Origin: Streptococcus ovis DSM 16829
GTDB taxonomy: Bacteria; Bacillota; Bacilli; Lactobacillales; Streptococcaceae
Length of the DNA: 64,000 nt
Reading direction: 5' to 3'
Assembly (NCBI RefSeq): GCF_000380125.1
Contig: NZ_KB904564.1
Location: forward strand, 1-64,000
The notes beneath the pieces were generated by a model. It saw only the letters and a list, made by a program, of their open reading frames with translations. It ran no database searches and had not been told where the DNA came from. This document shows positions 9,657 through 41,605 of this stretch, in pieces (position 1 is the stretch's first letter; every line of letters begins with the position of its first letter). A program made the position numbers and the translations under genes.

Positions 9657-10452
9657 TTATAAATTAACAAAAGAAGATTTTAATCAAATCAACAAACGTA
9701 GTCTCTTTACCTTCCAATGGGGATGGAACTATGAGCGGATGCAAGCTTCAGGTTACTTGTATCATATCTTGCCACAATTACGTAAGATTTATGGAGATGG
9801 AACACCTGAGTTAAAAGAAATGATGAAGACCCATACGCAGTTCTTCAATACTTCTAACTTCTTCCATACCATTATTACAGGTATCGACCTTGCTCTTGAA
9901 GAAAATGAGGGAGTTAGTGCAAAAGATGCTGTTAATGGTGTAAAGACTGGTCTGATGGGGCCATTTGCACCAATTGGAGATTCACTCTTTGCATCTCTTG
10001 TACCAGCGATTATGGGTTCCATCGCTGCTGGTCTTGCTATCAATGGAAACCCACTCGGTATTGTTCTTTGGGTGGCAGTTCAAATGGTTATCAACGTCTT
10101 TCGTTGGAAACAATTGGAAATTGCTTATAAGGAAGGAACGAAGCTCGTTACGACGATGCGCGATAAATTGACTGCTCTAGTTGATGCTGCTTCTGTAATG
10201 GGTGTCTTCATGGTTGGTGCCTTGATTGCAACCATGATTAACTTCCAAATTATTGCAGCTCCGCAAATTGGTGAAAAAGTGATTAATATCCAAGATCTCT
10301 TCAACCAAATCTTCCCTCGCTTAGTGCCAGCTCTCTTTACAGGTCTTCTTTTCTGGTTGCTTGGTCGCAAGGGTATGACTTCAACTAAAGCAATCTTGAT
10401 CATTATTGTGTTTGCATTGGCAATGGCATTCTTCAAGATCCTAGGTGTGTAA
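9643..10452 (+). CDS. gadE: PTS EIID, mannose/sorbose family
   Basis: A 269-residue membrane protein with the family signature region FTFQWGWNYERMQASGYLY and an acidic/glycine segment GLMGPFAPIGDSLF. ATG at 9643 with GGGGA upstream is preferred over a GTG five codons earlier. It overlaps the IIC 3' end. IID pairs with IIC in the transporter. Confidence 0.9.
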   Translation: MTKSNYKLTKEDFNQINKRSLFTFQWGWNYERMQASGYLYHILPQLRKIYGDGTPELKEMMKTHTQFFNTSNFFHTIITGIDLALEENEGVSAKDAVNGVKTGLMGPFAPIGDSLFASLVPAIMGSIAAGLAINGNPLGIVLWVAVQMVINVFRWKQLEIAYKEGTKLVTTMRDKLTALVDAASVMGVFMVGALIATMINFQIIAAPQIGEKVINIQDLFNQIFPRLVPALFTGLLFWLLGRKGMTSTKAILIIIVFALAMAFFKILGV

Positions 10453-34630: not shown

Positions 34631-34661
34631 AGCTGTGTAATCGAATACATTTCGAAGCAAC

Positions 34662-34763
34662 AAAAAAGCACCGAATCGGTGCGCATGACTAGACTATGGA
34701 TATACCATATTTTAACTCAAAAGGACGTACCTTTTGGCTGTGTTGTTTCGAATGGTTCCAACA
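34662..34763 (-). ncRNA. tracrRNA with extra hairpin
   Basis: About 102 nt on the minus strand. The upper anti-repeat (34737-34761) is complementary to 25 consecutive bases of the CRISPR repeat; the lower anti-repeat is 34709-34717. Between them, where family members known to me have one base on the plus strand, lies CAAAAGGTACGTCCTTTTG (34718-34736), a perfect 7-bp hairpin. A short nexus-like stem (ATGGTATATCCAT) and the terminal hairpin GCACCGATTCGGTGC with T6 (34662-34682) follow; the usual stem-loop 1 (AACTT-GAAA-AAGTG) is not seen. tracrRNA pairs with pre-crRNA, recruits RNase III and loads Cas9. Confidence 0.88.
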
Positions 34764-34768
34764 CTGTC

Positions 34769-34797
34769 ATTCTACCTCATTAAAGAGGATTTTGCAA
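34769..34797 (-). promoter_or_regulatory. tracrRNA promoter
   Basis: On the minus strand, TTGCAA (34792-34797), 17 bp, TAGAAT (34769-34774); start point expected near 34763. It lies inside the cas9 5' leader, just upstream of the cas9 start codon. Confidence 0.65.
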
Positions 34798-34815: not shown

Positions 34816-37800
34816 ATGGCAAAATTTAATCAAAAATATTCCATTGGCTTAGATATAGGGGTTTCTTCGGTTGGGTATGCTGTAGTTACAGAGGATCACA
34901 AAGTGCCAAGTTTTAAATTTCGTGTGTTTGGAGAAACAGAGAAAAAGTACATTAAGAAGAATCTAATTGGCTCAACAATTTTTGAGTCCGCAGAACCTGC
35001 TCAAGATACAAGATTATTTAGAACGAGTAGCCGTAGACTTGAAAGAAGAAATAACAGGATTAAATATCTACGTGAAATTTTTAAAGAGGAAATTGATAAG
35101 GTAGATAAAAACTTTTATCGCCGGCTGGATGAGACGTTTAGAATCGTAGATGACAAAAGTGATGATATCAGAATTAAACATCCTTTTTTTGGAAAAAAAG
35201 ATTTAGAAAAAGAATTTCATCAGCAATATCCGACTATTTATCATTTAAGAAAATATTTAGCCGATATGCCTGACACTGAAGAAAAAGCTGACATCAGAGA
35301 AGTTTATATGGCGCTTTCTCATATTTTAAAATATCGTGGAAACTTCTTAACAACTCGTGATATAAATCCTAATAATATTGATATAAAAGAAAAATGGAAA
35401 GATTTTGTACTTGCTTGTCAAGAGTGTTTTGACATGGAATTACCTGACGGATATGAAGAGTTTTATACTGTCTTGAAAGAAAAATTAGCGCGTAAAGATA
35501 AAGTAAAAACAATGGTTTCTTTATTTCCAAAAGAAGAAAGTAAAAAAGATACAAGTGTTTTTAAACAATTATTACATTTGTTATTTGGATTATCTACAAA
35601 ATTTAAAGTTTGTTTCGAGTTAGATGAAGAACCAGACTTAGACTTTTTAAAAGAGAATTATGATGAAAAATTATCGGAGTTACTATGTGTTATTTCTGAT
35701 GATTTTTCTAATGTTTTTGCTTGTTTAAAATCTTTCAACGATACATTATTGCTTTCAGATATGCTAACTCATAAAGGAGGAACGCATGCTAGATTTTCAG
35801 CAACAATGATTGATAGATATGAAGAACACAGAAAAGATTTACAGCGGTTAAAATCTTTTGTAAAACAAAATTTATCAGAGCAAGATTATCTAGATATTTT
35901 CGGTAAAAAGACGGAGAAGGGATTTGTAGTTGATAAAGAGATAAGAGGTTATGCGGGATATATTAATAATAAGACAAAAATAGACGATTTTTATTCATAT
36001 CTTAGTAATAAAATCAAAATGTTAGAAGGTGCTGATTATTTTCTAGATAAAATTGAACATAAAACGTTATTAAGAAAACTCAGAACAGTTGATAACGGTG
36101 CAATACCGAATCAAATTCATGCCTATGAATTTGTTAAAATAATTGATAGACAAGGGAAAAATTACCCATTCTTATTGGAAAATAAGGAGAAATTGCTAAA
36201 AATTTTAACTGTTCGAATTCCGTATTTTGTAGGACCTTTAGCACAAAAAGATGGCAGCCGATTTTCTTGGTATGTAAAGAATGAAGCACCAAATGTTTTA
36301 GATTCAGATGATGAGGATACTAAGGCTGGGAAAATTCGTCCCTGGAATATAGACCAGTTGGTTAATATGAATGAAACAAGAAAAGAATTTATTAATAATC
36401 TAATAGGAGAAGACACTGTTCTTTTAAATAAAAAAGTATTACCTAAAAGAAGTTTAATTTATGAAGAACTAATGCTACATAATGAATTAACGAGGGTGAA
36501 GTATAAAAATAAATATGGAAAGACTGATTCATTTAAATCTGATGTCAGGAAGGCTATTATTAAAGACTTGTTTAAAGATACATCTAAAAGAGTTACAGTG
36601 AAACAACTAGTGAATTATTTGCAGAACTGCCATGATGAATTAAAAGTTGTTGAGATAGTAGCTGGGGTAAGACAATCATTTAATGCCTCCTTGAAGACTT
36701 ACAACGATTTTAAAAATATTTTTTCTGCACAGATGTTAGATTCTGAAGAATATCAAAATGAATTAGAAGAAATTGTAAAGATTATTACTGTATTTGAAGA
36801 TAAGAAATCAATTAAAGATTATTTCAAGAAAAATTTTTCAAATTTTTTATCGGATGAACAAATTGATCAACTATCTAAATTAAGATATAAAGGATGGGGA
36901 GAATATTCACAAGAATTGTTGACGAATATACGAGATGAAGATACTGGATTTAATTTATTGCAATTTGTTAGGACAGATGATAGAAACAGAAATCTTCAAC
37001 AGTTAATTTCTGACGATAAATTGTCCTTTAAACATAAGATTTCAGAAATCCAATCGCAATCTTTACAATCAGATACATTATCTGAAAGCATTAAAGAAAT
37101 TGCAGGAAGTCCAGCGCTCAAGCGTGGCATTTTAAATAGTATCAAAATTGTTGATGAACTTGTAGATATTATTGGTTATCCACCTCAAAAAATTGTAATT
37201 GAAATGGCACGAGAAAATATGACAACAGAGGAGGGGAAAAAGAAATCAAAACCAAGAAAAACCAAACTTGAACAAGCTTTAAAGAGAATGGAAACAGATT
37301 TATTGGTTGATAATGGTAAAAATAAGGGGCAACTGAAATATAGTAACGAAGAACTACAATCAGAAAAACTCTATTTATATTGTCTGCAAAATGGGAAAGA
37401 TATGTATTCGTTAGATAAGGATGGTAATCCGGAAACTATAGATTATAATCAATTAAATCAGTATGAAGTGGATCATATTATACCGTATAGCCATTTACCG
37501 ATAGATTCTATTGATAATAAAGTCTTGACTCGTCGAATAAACAATCAGAATAAAGAAGCAAATATTCCAAATAAAGATATTGTTCGGAAAATGAAGCCTT
37601 TTTGGGAACAGCTTTATGAAGCAAAACTGATTTCACAAGTTAAATTTCAACGATTAACAACAGCAGAAAGAACACCTAATGGTGTTTTAACAGAGGATAT
37701 GAAGGCAGGATTCATCGAACGTCAATTAGTTGAAACACGCCAGATTATTAAACATGTCGCTCGAATTTTAGATGGTCGATTTGAAAGTAGTAAAATTGTT

Positions 37801-39036
37801 ACTTTAAAGTCTCAATTAGTATCTAACTTTAGAAATACTTTTCATTTACCTAAGATTAGAGAGTTAAACGATTACCATCATGCCCATGATGCTTATTTGA
37901 ATGTTGTTATTGCCCAAACTTTGTTAAAAGCATATCCGAAATTGGCACCAGAACTAGTTTATGGTCAGTATAGAAAATTTAATCGTCATGAGGAAAATAA
38001 AGCAACAGTCAAAAAACATTTGTATTCAAATGTAATGAAATTTTTCAACAGTCCAGAAACTAAAGTTAGTAAAGAAGTTTGGAGCTGTAGTAGGGATTTA
38101 CCTATTATTAAAAAAGTTTTATATAAATCTCAAATTAATTTTGTTAAAAGGACAGTGATAAAAAAGGGTGGTTTCTTTAATCAAAATCCTGTTGGTCAAA
38201 ATTCTACGAAACTAGCACCAGAAAATCTCTATCCAATAAAGCAGGGGTTAAATCCATCTATTTATGGAGGATACGGGCCGCTAAATTCAGCCCTTTCAGT
38301 TCTAATAATAGCAGAGAAAATGAATAATAGAACCAATAAAACAAAACTAGTAAAAGAACTTCATGATATTGATATTATTGATTATAAGAGATTCAATGAA
38401 AATCCAATTGATTTTCTCAATAGTCCAGAATTCTTAAGTAAAAATGATTTTTCTAGAGTAAAAAACTATATTCAGATTCCTAAATATTCTTTAGTTCAAC
38501 AAGCTAATGGTGGAAAAATGATGATTGAAAGTTCTACAAATTTACATAAGGCAACACAATTTAAATTGACTGAATCCCAAAGTGAACTCTTTTATCATAT
38601 GAAACGTTATTTGACAAAATCAAATTTGATGGATTTAAAGGATGAAATGGCAGTTAAAGAAAGTGTTAACTTTATTGAACAACATAGCGATGAATTTGAT
38701 AAACTTGCAGAAGCAATATTTAATTTCTCCAGAAAATACCTTGGTGAAACAGCAGGTTTAAAATCATTAGAATCAGGTTATAACAACCGGAACTTTAAAG
38801 ATTTTCAATGTAACGATGAAGTAGTTAGATATTATTATGAGAATTTTTTAAAGATGTTTGAATTTGTAAAAAGTGGAGTTAGTAGAGATATTAAAACTTA
38901 CTTTTCTGAAAAAAATTCAGTTGCGAGACCAAGATATAAGCCAAATTCTAAATTACTCTCAGCCACCCTCATCCACCAATCCATCACAGGTCTTTACGAA
39001 ACTCGCATTGATTTGAGTAAGTGGGGAGAAGAGTAA
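34816..39036 (+). CDS. cas9: CRISPR-associated endonuclease Cas9 (type II-A)
   Basis: A 1406-residue RNA-guided DNA endonuclease. RuvC-I D13 (IGLDIG), arginine-rich bridge helix about 65-90, RuvC-II E796 (VIEMARENM), HNH with D886-H887 ([12 protein letters not shown]), RuvC-III H1022 and D1025 ([10 protein letters not shown]). In the PAM-interacting domain R1371-P-R1373 lines up with R1333/R1335 of SpCas9, predicting an NGG-type PAM. All catalytic residues are present. ATG at 34816 after AGGAG; the open frame extends upstream but runs through the tracrRNA gene. The body is AT-rich while the last 90 bases are host-like. The stop overlaps cas1 (TAATG). Confidence 0.97.
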
Positions 39037-39902
39037 TGGGATGGCGAACAGTAGTTGTTAATACACATTCAAAATTATCCTACAAAAATAACCATTTGAT
39101 TTTTAAAGATGCTTATAAAACAGAGATGATTCATCTGTCTGAGATTGATATTCTGTTACTGGAAACAACAGATATAGTATTGTCTACAATGTTAATAAAG
39201 CGTCTTGTAGATGAGAATATTTTAGTGATATTCTGTGATGATAAACGATTGCCAACAGCTATGATCATGCCTTATTATGCAAGGCATGATTCTAGCTTGC
39301 AATTGAGCAATCAAATTGCATGGGGAGAAGATATCAAATGTGAGGTTTGGACAACCATCATTGCTCAGAAAATTTTGAATCAGAGTATGTACTTGGGAGA
39401 ATGTTCGTTCTTTGAAAAGTCTCAATCCATTATGGACTTGTATCATAGTTTAGAGCCATTTGATCCGAGTAATCGTGAAGGGCATGCTGCGCGTATTTAT
39501 TTTAATACTTTGTTCGGGAATGATTTTTCACGGGAGCAGGATAATGACATCAATGCAGGACTTGACTATGGTTATACGTTACTATTAAGCATGTTTGCGC
39601 GTGAGGTGGTAGTGTGTGGGTGCATGACACAATTTGGTCTGAAGCATGCCAATCAGTTCAACCAGTTTAATTTTGCCAGTGATGTCATGGAGCCGTTTCG
39701 TCCCATTGTGGATAGGATTATCTATGAAAACCGCAATAATTCTTTTGTCAAAATGAAGCGTGAGTTGTTCACGATATTTTCAGAGACGTATCTTTATAAT
39801 AACAAAGAAATGTACCTCTCAAATATTGTCAGTGATTATACGAAAAAGGTCGTGAAGGCGTTGAATAATCAAGGAAAAGGAGTTCCTGAGTTTAGGATAT
39901 GA
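39036..39902 (+). CDS. cas1: CRISPR integrase Cas1
   Basis: A 288-residue Cas1 of type II-A. Conserved metal-binding residues are the glutamate in [16 protein letters not shown], the histidine in [14 protein letters not shown] and the aspartate in SDVMEPFRP. With Cas2 it forms the integrase that inserts new spacers at the leader end. ATG at 39036 overlaps the cas9 stop; the open frame extends 15 bases further into cas9. Base composition is closer to the host average than cas9. Confidence 0.96.
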
Positions 39903-40243
39903 GTTATCGGTATATGCGTATGATTTTAATGTTTGATATGCCAACGGATACAGCTGAGGAACGCAAGGCATATCGTAAATTTAGGAAGTTTTTACTTGGT
40001 GAAGGTTTTATCATGCACCAATTTTCTGTTTACAGTAAGTTGCTGCTTAATAATTCTGCTAACAAGGCGATGATAGACCGTCTTCAAGAGAACAACCCTA
40101 AAAAAGGGAGTATTACTTTATTGACAGTGACGGAGAAACAATTTGCTCGGATGATTTATTTACACGGAGCCCGTAATCAGAGTATTGCCAATTCAGATAG
40201 TCGAGTCGTGTTTTTAGGGGAGGCATACGATGCTGAAGATTAA
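39899..40243 (+). CDS. cas2: CRISPR-associated protein Cas2
   Basis: A 114-residue ferredoxin-fold protein ([17 protein letters not shown]...), structural partner of Cas1 in the adaptation complex. Four-base overlap with cas1 (ATGA) and 14-base overlap with csn2 show a tight operon. Confidence 0.95.
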
Positions 40244-40895
40244 TTTTCCGATTTTAGATGAACCCTTGACGTTAGAAAATGGGACGATTCTTGTTATCAA
40301 AGATGTGGCAATATTTTCAAATCTAATCAAGCAGCTTTATGACTATGATGAGGATGGCGAACTCAAATTATTTGATAGCAAGTTAAAATCACTTAAAGAA
40401 TCTGAGCTTATGGTAGTAACAGATATCTTAGGATATGATATCAATGCCCCTGCCCTTTTGAAGCTAATCCATGCGGATTTGGAATCACAGTTCAATGATA
40501 AGCCGGAAGTTAAATCAATGGTTGAAAAGTTAGCTGCAACGATCACAGAATTGATTGCCTTTGAATGTTTGGAAAATGAACTGGACTTGGAATTTGATGA
40601 GATTACAATTTTGGAGTTGATTAAGGCTTTAGGTGTAAAAATCGAAACACAAAGTGATACCATTTTTGAAAAATGTTTTGAAATACTACAAATTTTTAAT
40701 TACCTCAGTAAAAAGCGCCTTTTGATTTTTGTAAATAGCGGAGCTTATTTAACAAAAAAGGAAATGGGAAAGTTATTGGAGTACATTCGACTGTCTAACC
40801 AAACAGTATTATTTTTAGAACCAAGACGACTGTACGATTTTCCTCAATATGTTTTGGATGAAGATTACTTTTTGATGGCAGAAAATAATATGTAA
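40230..40895 (+). CDS. csn2: CRISPR adaptation protein Csn2
   Basis: A 221-residue Csn2 of the short subtype found with S. pyogenes-like type II-A loci. Csn2 forms a tetrameric ring that slides on double-stranded DNA ends during spacer acquisition; its presence marks subtype II-A. It overlaps cas2 and is the last cas gene before the leader. Confidence 0.93.
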
Positions 40896-41107: not shown

Positions 41108-41605
41108 GTTTTAGAGCTGTGTTGTTTCGAATGGTTCCAAAACCGCACCGTCACCGTACTTGATTTTTGTATTGTTTTAGAGCTGTGTTGTTTCGAATGG
41201 TTCCAAAACGTTACTCCTTTTCCACCTGCAAGAGAAGAAGTTTTAGAGCTGTGTTGTTTCGAATGGTTCCAAAACTATTGCAGATGATAAAGCACTAGCC
41301 GACAAGTTTTAGAGCTGTGTTGTTTCGAATGGTTCCAAAACAAGCGAGACAACTTACCGAGACAAAGAACTGTTTTAGAGCTGTGTTGTTTCGAATGGTT
41401 CCAAAACGGCAGTTGCTGTCTCATCCCTTAGCAATTAGTTTTAGAGCTGTGTTGTTTCGAATGGTTCCAAAACATGTATTCGGATGAATTTAAAAAGATG
41501 AAGGTTTTAGAGCTGTGTTGTTTCGAATGGTTCCAAAACCACAAGCTTAGCCCACTCTCGATAGCAAGCGTTTTAGAGCTATGTTGTTTCGAATGGTTTC
41601 AATAC
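41108..41605 (+). CRISPR. Type II-A CRISPR array, 8 repeats, 7 spacers
   Basis: Eight 36-bp repeats starting gttttagagctgtgttgttt at 41108, 41174, 41240, 41306, 41372, 41438, 41504 and 41570, with seven spacers of exactly 30 bp. Repeats 1-7 are identical. The last (41570-41605) is degenerate (ctgtg to ctatg, and an altered 3' end ggtttcaatac), which marks the distal end. Several spacers read as open coding sequence in one frame, fitting phage or plasmid genes. No spacer matches elsewhere in this window by eye. Confidence 0.98.

Follow-up and report, generated by a model that had tools for sequence, protein, structure and literature searches.

The bulge of the repeat:anti-repeat duplex is among the parts of the SpCas9 guide that least tolerate change. 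In the DNA of Streptococcus ovis DSM 16829 analysed here (positions 1 to 64,000 of contig NZ_KB904564.1, hereafter the window, 64,000 nucleotides in length) a tracrRNA gene next to cas9 carries a perfect hairpin exactly at this place. The question raised by this locus is whether such a tracrRNA is a naturally remodelled scaffold matched to its Cas9 or a tracrRNA in decay, both of which had been proposed in the first-pass annotation. Comparison with other streptococci points to the former, and we consider it highly probable that the gene encodes a working tracrRNA, cognate to a distinct streptococcal subclade of type II-A Cas9, in which the bulge has been remodelled to a three-way junction with a hairpin of 7-9 bp.

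The locus (Table 1) belongs to type II-A, as it has cas9, cas1, cas2, an adjacent array and, by its position and size, a probable csn2. The repeat of the array is that of S. thermophilus CRISPR3. The identical repeat is present in all nine hairpin loci described below (one copy was found in S. devriesei), and it also occurs, exact, in 22 of 57 other loci (L097-L154) of which one strand was scanned.

Table 1. Features of the CRISPR-Cas locus of the S. ovis window (positions in the window).
Feature	Positions	Strand	Remarks
tracrRNA gene with bulge hairpin	34662..34764	minus	Anti-repeat and alignment; covariance-model match 34662-34762, 110 bits
Upper anti-repeat TTGGAACCATTCGAAACAACACAGC	34761-34737	minus	Complements the CRISPR repeat perfectly over 25 nt
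Bulge hairpin CAAAAGGTACGTCCTTTTG (CAAAAGG-UACGU-CCUUUUG)	34736-34718	minus	7 bp, 5-nt loop; lies between the two anti-repeats
Bulge bases kept (AGU), then lower anti-repeat UAAAAU	34717-34715 and 34714-34709	minus	Stretch after the hairpin reads AGUUAAAAU
Nexus hairpin UAUGG-UAUAU-CCAUA	34709-34695	minus	5 Watson-Crick pairs
Terminator hairpin GCACCGATTCGGTGC, then six T	34682-34668 and 34667-34662	minus	Whole element GCACCGAUUCGGUGC, 34662..34682; edge of the type-specific block in relatives
Promoter-like pair TTGCAA / TAGAAT	34769..34797	minus	Spacing 17 nt; 5' of the tracrRNA
cas9	34816..39036	plus	1406 aa; clade with the hairpin; two REC1 insertions, one near SpCas9 F351-Y359 and one ahead of I473
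cas1	39036..39902	plus	Close to cas1 of ordinary type II-A loci
cas2	39899..40243	plus	Like cas1, common to hairpin-type and ordinary loci
csn2	40230..40895	plus	By position and size
CRISPR array	41108..41605	plus	7 exact repeats (41108-41539) and 1 degenerate; seven 30-nt spacers; repeat GTTTTAGAGCTGTGTTGTTTCGAATGGTTCCAAAAC

The gene has the features of a tracrRNA, namely an anti-repeat complementary to the repeat together with promoter-like and terminator sequences. The structure that the first-pass annotation had read from the letters was largely confirmed: the upper anti-repeat is a perfect complement of the repeat over 25 bases, a perfect 7-bp stem with a 5-base loop lies between the two anti-repeats (all seven pairs with probabilities of 0.97-1.00 in a cofold of repeat and tracrRNA), and the hairpin that follows the nexus in SpCas9 (stem-loop 2) is indeed unrecognisable, a 12-nt linker lying between nexus and terminator hairpin. 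The nexus had been called short, which its five Watson-Crick pairs do not bear out. Free-energy folding alone did not form the A-U lower stem adjoining the hairpin. The minimum-energy cofold of the window pairs the repeat with UCUAG 3' of the nexus; this pairing is absent in most relatives and was set aside. Near position 34631, at the cas9 promoter, lies a stretch resembling the repeat; it was attributed to chance, its score having been matched in 193 of 2000 shuffles.

A stem of 7 bp is by itself unremarkable, because a perfect stem of at least that length arose in 187 of 200,000 shuffles of the hairpin 19-mer and the 64-kb window has 41 maximal perfect stems of such size with loops of 3-8 nt. 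What is remarkable is its conservation at exactly that place. The sample consisted of 284 Streptococcus genomes, one per species, 85 of which had a Cas9 match. Eight of these form a group, composed of the window and seven genomes whose Cas9 has 62-67% identity to that of the window (in G191 as two pieces); the Cas9 of the remaining 77 is less alike, mostly at 40-47%. The gap between the anti-repeats was counted in the upstream DNA of 77 of the 85 genomes, eight (seven with a distant Cas9 and one partial) having been left out. The tracrRNA pattern was matched in 70 of these 77, the gap being 2-5 nt in 61 and 19-22 nt in nine, and it gave no tracrRNA in seven, at least one of which (L053) nonetheless shows a 2-nt gap. 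All eight genomes of the Cas9 group have the long gap, and the ninth is a divergent locus, G035, whose Cas9 is 40% identical. Hairpin-type members include S. sanguinis SK49, S. oralis DD15 and DD16, S. oralis subsp. tigurinus AZ_3a and S. devriesei DSM 19639. Within the set of genomes read, the hairpin is limited to one Cas9 clade and G035.

A covariance model built from the nine hairpin-type tracrRNAs was run on the same 284 genomes and on 395 Lactobacillales genomes. It matched 109 of the former, 13 of them above 80 bits, the next best (75 bits) being an ordinary tracrRNA. A Cas9 match is absent in four of the 13 top-scoring genomes, these being G032, G126 (an 83% complete genome), G205 and G070 (a partly degenerate copy). 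Among the Lactobacillales 67 genomes matched, 20 of them Streptococcus, and the best 30 of the 67 matches included no hairpin type outside that genus. Viral contigs gave no exact pattern match, and the Cas9 of each of 16 plasmid records had less than 60% identity to that of the window. Orphan hairpin-type tracrRNAs, with no cas9 within the 3-kb stretch, lie in L196, L231, L232 and L236. The 5' end of the L232 tracrRNA is repeat-like (GTTTTGGAACC), which might point to a recombination of repeat with anti-repeat that removed the cas genes.

The first-pass annotation had supposed that a single base separates the anti-repeat parts in tracrRNAs of the S. pyogenes/S. thermophilus CRISPR3 type. In the 61 ordinary streptococcal tracrRNAs the distance from AGC to GUUAAAA is 2 nt in 54, 3 nt in 6 and 5 nt in 1, so that the hairpin stands in place of the first, variable base of the bulge. 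The ordinary form reads AGC-AAGUUAAAAU (or GAGU, AAAGU and alike) and the other AGC-hairpin-AGUUAAAAU, AGU being retained and only the first bulge base replaced. Compared with an SpCas9-type (clade IV-like) guide, the tracrRNA of the window thus has a 19-nt hairpin in the stead of a short unpaired bulge, and a nexus with the terminator hairpin only in the stead of a nexus with two 3' hairpins. The core group has a nexus extended by A-U pairs, which G035 does not (two nexus pairs fail in the alignment). Extended nexuses, for example AAGGCAGTGAU...AUCCAGUCCG, were seen in ordinary tracrRNAs too (L017, L019, L035, L036, L055, L063, L067 and L080) and represent a further natural scaffold variant.

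The joint occurrence of an added and a missing hairpin might mean that the bulge hairpin is a stability element compensating for stem-loop 2, with no role at the bulge. In agreement with this, no separate hairpin between nexus and terminator was found in the cofolds of the nine hairpin-type tracrRNAs. However, a rough scan found that 10 of the 61 ordinary tracrRNAs have no stem of at least 4 bp at that place, and at least five of them (L031, L047, L049, L052 and L074) clearly do without stem-loop 2 in spite of an ordinary bulge of 2-3 nt. A 4-bp stem is, moreover, possible in the linkers of four of the nine hairpin-type tracrRNAs, so that the loss is not uniform. The loss of stem-loop 2 and the gain of the hairpin are therefore separable, and we regard compensation as an unlikely explanation.

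The nine tracrRNAs that were aligned contain five different hairpins, one of which SK49, DD15, DD16, AZ_3a and G191 have in common, and the covariation thus comes from no more than five sequences. The 7-bp stem is paired in all 63 cells of the alignment, and the hairpins have stems of 7-9 bp (9 bp in S. devriesei) and loops of 3-5 nt. Both partners have changed in pair 1 (C-G to A-U), pair 4 (A-U to G-C) and pair 7 (A-U to G-C or U-G), the first two in G035 alone and the last in the window too. In stem and nexus together three pairs are doubly changed, whereas shuffles average 0.5 and give as many in 1 of 500 cases, and slid controls give 0-1; a second measure of covariation, counting further pair types, was ordinary (89 of 500 shuffles as high). 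A promoter-like pair, searched with a loose pattern, precedes the tracrRNA in all nine hairpin-type loci with a cas9.

A perfect inverted repeat about 80 bp upstream of cas9 could also serve, in the DNA between tracrRNA and cas9, as an operator bound by a regulator, the RNA hairpin being incidental; dyad operators likewise keep complementary arms. The spacing of an operator should be fixed, while here the loop varies (3, 4 or 5 nt), and this favours a selected RNA structure as the reason for the conservation of the hairpin. The arms also differ in G035, the element always lies exactly between both anti-repeats, and it is missing from ordinary loci whose flanks are similar. An operator is thus, in our opinion, very improbable. 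We propose a bulge-hairpin group on the conserved hairpin, its compensatory changes and its link to one Cas9 clade, G035 lying outside the well-supported core.

The relation of this selected hairpin to its Cas9 was examined in loci with closely related flanks. In S. sanguinis the hairpin-type strain SK49 and the ordinary strain BCC04 have 94.6% DNA identity over 5.3 kb on the left. This flank stops at position 5872 of L093, on the edge of the terminator hairpin of the tracrRNA, and the right one (90.7% over 2.1 kb) sets in at 10195, some 70 bp short of the cas9 end. Between these flanks only the 26-nt anti-repeat and two stretches of cas9 (56 and 32 bp) align under strict scoring, and under loose scoring the part of cas9 beyond its first kilobase aligns at only about 58-67% identity. 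The same edges were found when S. oralis DD16 and AZ_3a were compared with S. pseudopneumoniae 843 (respectively 90.0% and 94.5% identity on the left side, 92.6% and 92.8% on the right). When DD15 is compared with S. gordonii DD07 the right edge is seen (97.0%), together with 67 bp on the left (95.5%), S. devriesei and the window have the right edge alone, and G017 and G035 gave no such flank match to ordinary loci. Against ordinary loci the highest Cas1 identity is 98.3-99.7% in SK49, DD15, DD16 and AZ_3a, 97.2% in G191, 96.5% in S. devriesei, 95.5% in the window, 89.5% in G017 and 88.2% in G035, and the Cas9 proteins of the same pairs are only 39-44% identical (for G191 only a Cas9 fragment could be compared).

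For SK49, DD16 and AZ_3a these alignments show a type-specific block made up of the tracrRNA body and cas9. The right edge could also reflect the conserved C-terminus of Cas9, so that the edges mark candidate exchange points. Judging from the alignments, hairpin and Cas9 travel together, since the loci share flanks, cas1-cas2 and repeat but differ in tracrRNA body and cas9. One explanation would be that the hairpin is a device of evasion or orthogonality towards foreign Cas9 or towards anti-CRISPRs that recognise the scaffold. Anti-CRISPRs acting on the guide RNA are known, and a device of this kind would explain why tracrRNA and cas9 are exchanged as a block under common repeats and adaptation genes, the blocks differing in spite of identical repeats. 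Against it, none of the 109 matched Streptococcus genomes has more than one tracrRNA match, that is, two types in one cell were not seen, and we give this explanation little credit.

In most other streptococci Cas9 shares about 45% identity or less with that of the window. Indels and residues were counted in 102 unique Cas9 proteins of at least 1250 aa, comprising 7 of the core clade, 79 others, 15 distant ones that were set aside and G035, which was taken apart; proteins that were shorter or broken, including that of G191, were not counted. Both insertions in REC1 are present in 7 of 7 core-clade proteins and in none of the 79 others. The first lengthens the segment equivalent to SpCas9 345-359 to 25 residues against 13-21 in the others, adding 10 aa between F351 and Y359, and the second lengthens segment 460-478 to 32 residues against 18-22, adding 13 aa just before I473. 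The equivalents of F351 and Y359 are invariant in all 86 Cas9 and those of Y325 and H328 are kept too; these four residues and D364 contact the bulge in SpCas9. The equivalent of Q402 is L in all seven core-clade proteins and Q in all 79 others, and those of the catalytic residues D10, H840 and H983 of RuvC and HNH are kept in all seven. I473 belongs to the SpCas9 pocket that holds the nexus base U59 (PMC11417352). The position of the insertions is weak evidence and may be chance, because, relative to SpCas9, some 16 further indels of at least 3 residues occur in the Cas9 of the window. G035 has ordinary segments of 15 and 19 residues with neither insertion, and 3 of the 15 distant proteins that were set aside have 28-31 residues in the 345-359 segment.

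The phylogeny of 40 Cas9 proteins (IQ-TREE; 5 of the 7 core, G035 and 34 others) gave the core clade, with five rows, an SH-aLRT support of 100%, and the core with G035, which is on a long branch, 55%. With a support of 55 the tree does not decide between one and two origins of the hairpin. In a FastTree analysis G035 had grouped with the clade, the two together being sister to the remaining Firmicutes Cas9 of the group, a placement unsupported under the better model. The Cas9 frame of G035 (L173, 5976-10340) has one in-frame TAG at about codon 995 and that of G191 (L174) several stops, the tracrRNA looking intact in both.

We hypothesize that the crRNA would pair as usual through the upper and lower stem, that AGU would still be presented to Cas9 as in SpCas9, and that the hairpin would project from where the first bulge base normally lies and stabilise the junction there, the REC1 domain likely accommodating or reading it. 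Recognition of the hairpin by Cas9 is something we infer; the REC1 insertions lie beside residues that contact bulge and nexus in SpCas9, but G035 has the hairpin without either of them. As the repeat is ordinary, the crRNAs should be exchangeable with those of ordinary systems and the tracrRNA specific to its Cas9. A stronger version, which we put forward tentatively and would not yet bet on, is that the pocket enlarged by the F351-Y359 insertion requires the hairpin, that the tracrRNA is orthogonal to ordinary Cas9 and that the pair is swapped as a cassette under one array.

At the thresholds used, neither the seven spacers of the window nor those of SK49 gave a phage protospacer, a match of the former to a satellite phage being repeat-like. 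In S. oralis DD16 two spacers match phages at every base (SM1 and OlisA2; IPP36 and Javan242), and two of AZ_3a match Javan345 and Javan351 in the same way. The flanks in these relatives are NGG or NAG in five of eight distinct protospacers, which is weak evidence because the arrays may predate the present cas9. As far as such matches go, the phage-matching spacers show type II-A immunity at such loci and not acquisition by the hairpin-type Cas9, since arrays can outlive an exchange of cas9. Spacer 1 of AZ_3a (array of L096) is identical to phage Javan351, whose record gives the same strain as host; it is thus self-targeting, and the Cas9 of this strain may be inhibited or inactive. The record of Javan263, an S. 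infantarius prophage (MK448721.1), has many short array matches which look like a CRISPR repeat within the record.

Another observation concerns ordinary loci. A lone repeat upstream of cas9, preceded by a stretch of 10-14 nt, was found in L099, L102, L110, L119, L137 and L139, and at these six loci, among 15 repeat matches, a match to this stretch lies close by on the other strand, immediately followed 3' by AGG. L135 has a 9-nt match on the same strand with GGG, and the rest of the 15 have none or are repeats of arrays. These stretches are candidate short-guide crRNAs that might direct Cas9 to its own leader or promoter, as tracr-L does.

The proposal that the tracrRNA is decaying, with the insertion as a neutral remnant, can now be weighed. 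It would be in line with the orphan hairpin-type tracrRNAs of the four genomes without a Cas9 match, with the broken cas9 of G191 and with the stop in that of G035. However, cas9 is full-length in seven of the eight clade genomes (the window and six others), the hairpin is kept with compensatory changes, the promoter-like pair is present in 9 of 9 loci, and DD16 and AZ_3a have the spacers identical to streptococcal phages. Decay is, for these reasons, the least credible of the explanations considered here. A scaffold remodelled to fit its Cas9 is, on the contrary, well supported by the occurrence of the hairpin in 8 of 8 clade genomes and in G035, by those compensatory changes and by the block difference.

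Compared with SpCas9-like type II-A systems (S. pyogenes, S. thermophilus CRISPR3), the order tracrRNA(-)/cas9/cas1/cas2/csn2/array is the same, and so are the repeat, both anti-repeats, the AGU of the bulge, the nexus and the terminal hairpin. The window differs in having a hairpin of the 7-9 bp type for the first bulge base and an unrecognisable stem-loop 2, and the core clade differs by its A-U-extended nexus and its REC1 insertions. In a catalogue of Cas9 orthologs the clade IV guides are described with a bulge, a short nexus and two hairpins and those of clades III, VI and IX as longer, more varied and different in their bulges; the parts of its text that we consulted mention no bulge hairpin, although the guide figure in the supplement could hold one (PMC7606464). 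Neither is one described in the portions consulted of a work on metagenomic type II systems (PMC10278012). From what we consulted of the respective reports, BlCas9 and CjCas9 are alike in having natural departures of the scaffold matched to their Cas9, but these consist of a triple helix 3' of the duplex, the repeat:anti-repeat being plain (PMC11222456), and the type II tracrRNAs of Mollicutes also show natural variation of the bulge, which is absent in some species and not enlarged by a hairpin (PMC6882279). The first-pass annotation would have given up its reading if the hairpin proved to be an already described feature of all close relatives. It is indeed present in all of them; a description of a bulge hairpin in a tracrRNA was not found in the open-licence papers to which the search extended (subscription papers and supplements being outside its scope).

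On this comparative evidence the bulge hairpin is real and conserved, a variation on the Cas9 guide scaffold in a system of a known kind. Two independent origins, if this was the case, would make it more and not less interesting. As a natural hairpin that appears to be selected at the bulge, it shows how that contact with Cas9 can be rebuilt, and it represents a new place for structure in guides. The streptococci would also provide a natural pair of Cas9 types with common crRNA repeats but, if our inference holds, separate tracrRNAs. That tracrRNA and cas9 differ jointly while the repeats are common amounts to a natural swap experiment on the evolution of guide specificity.
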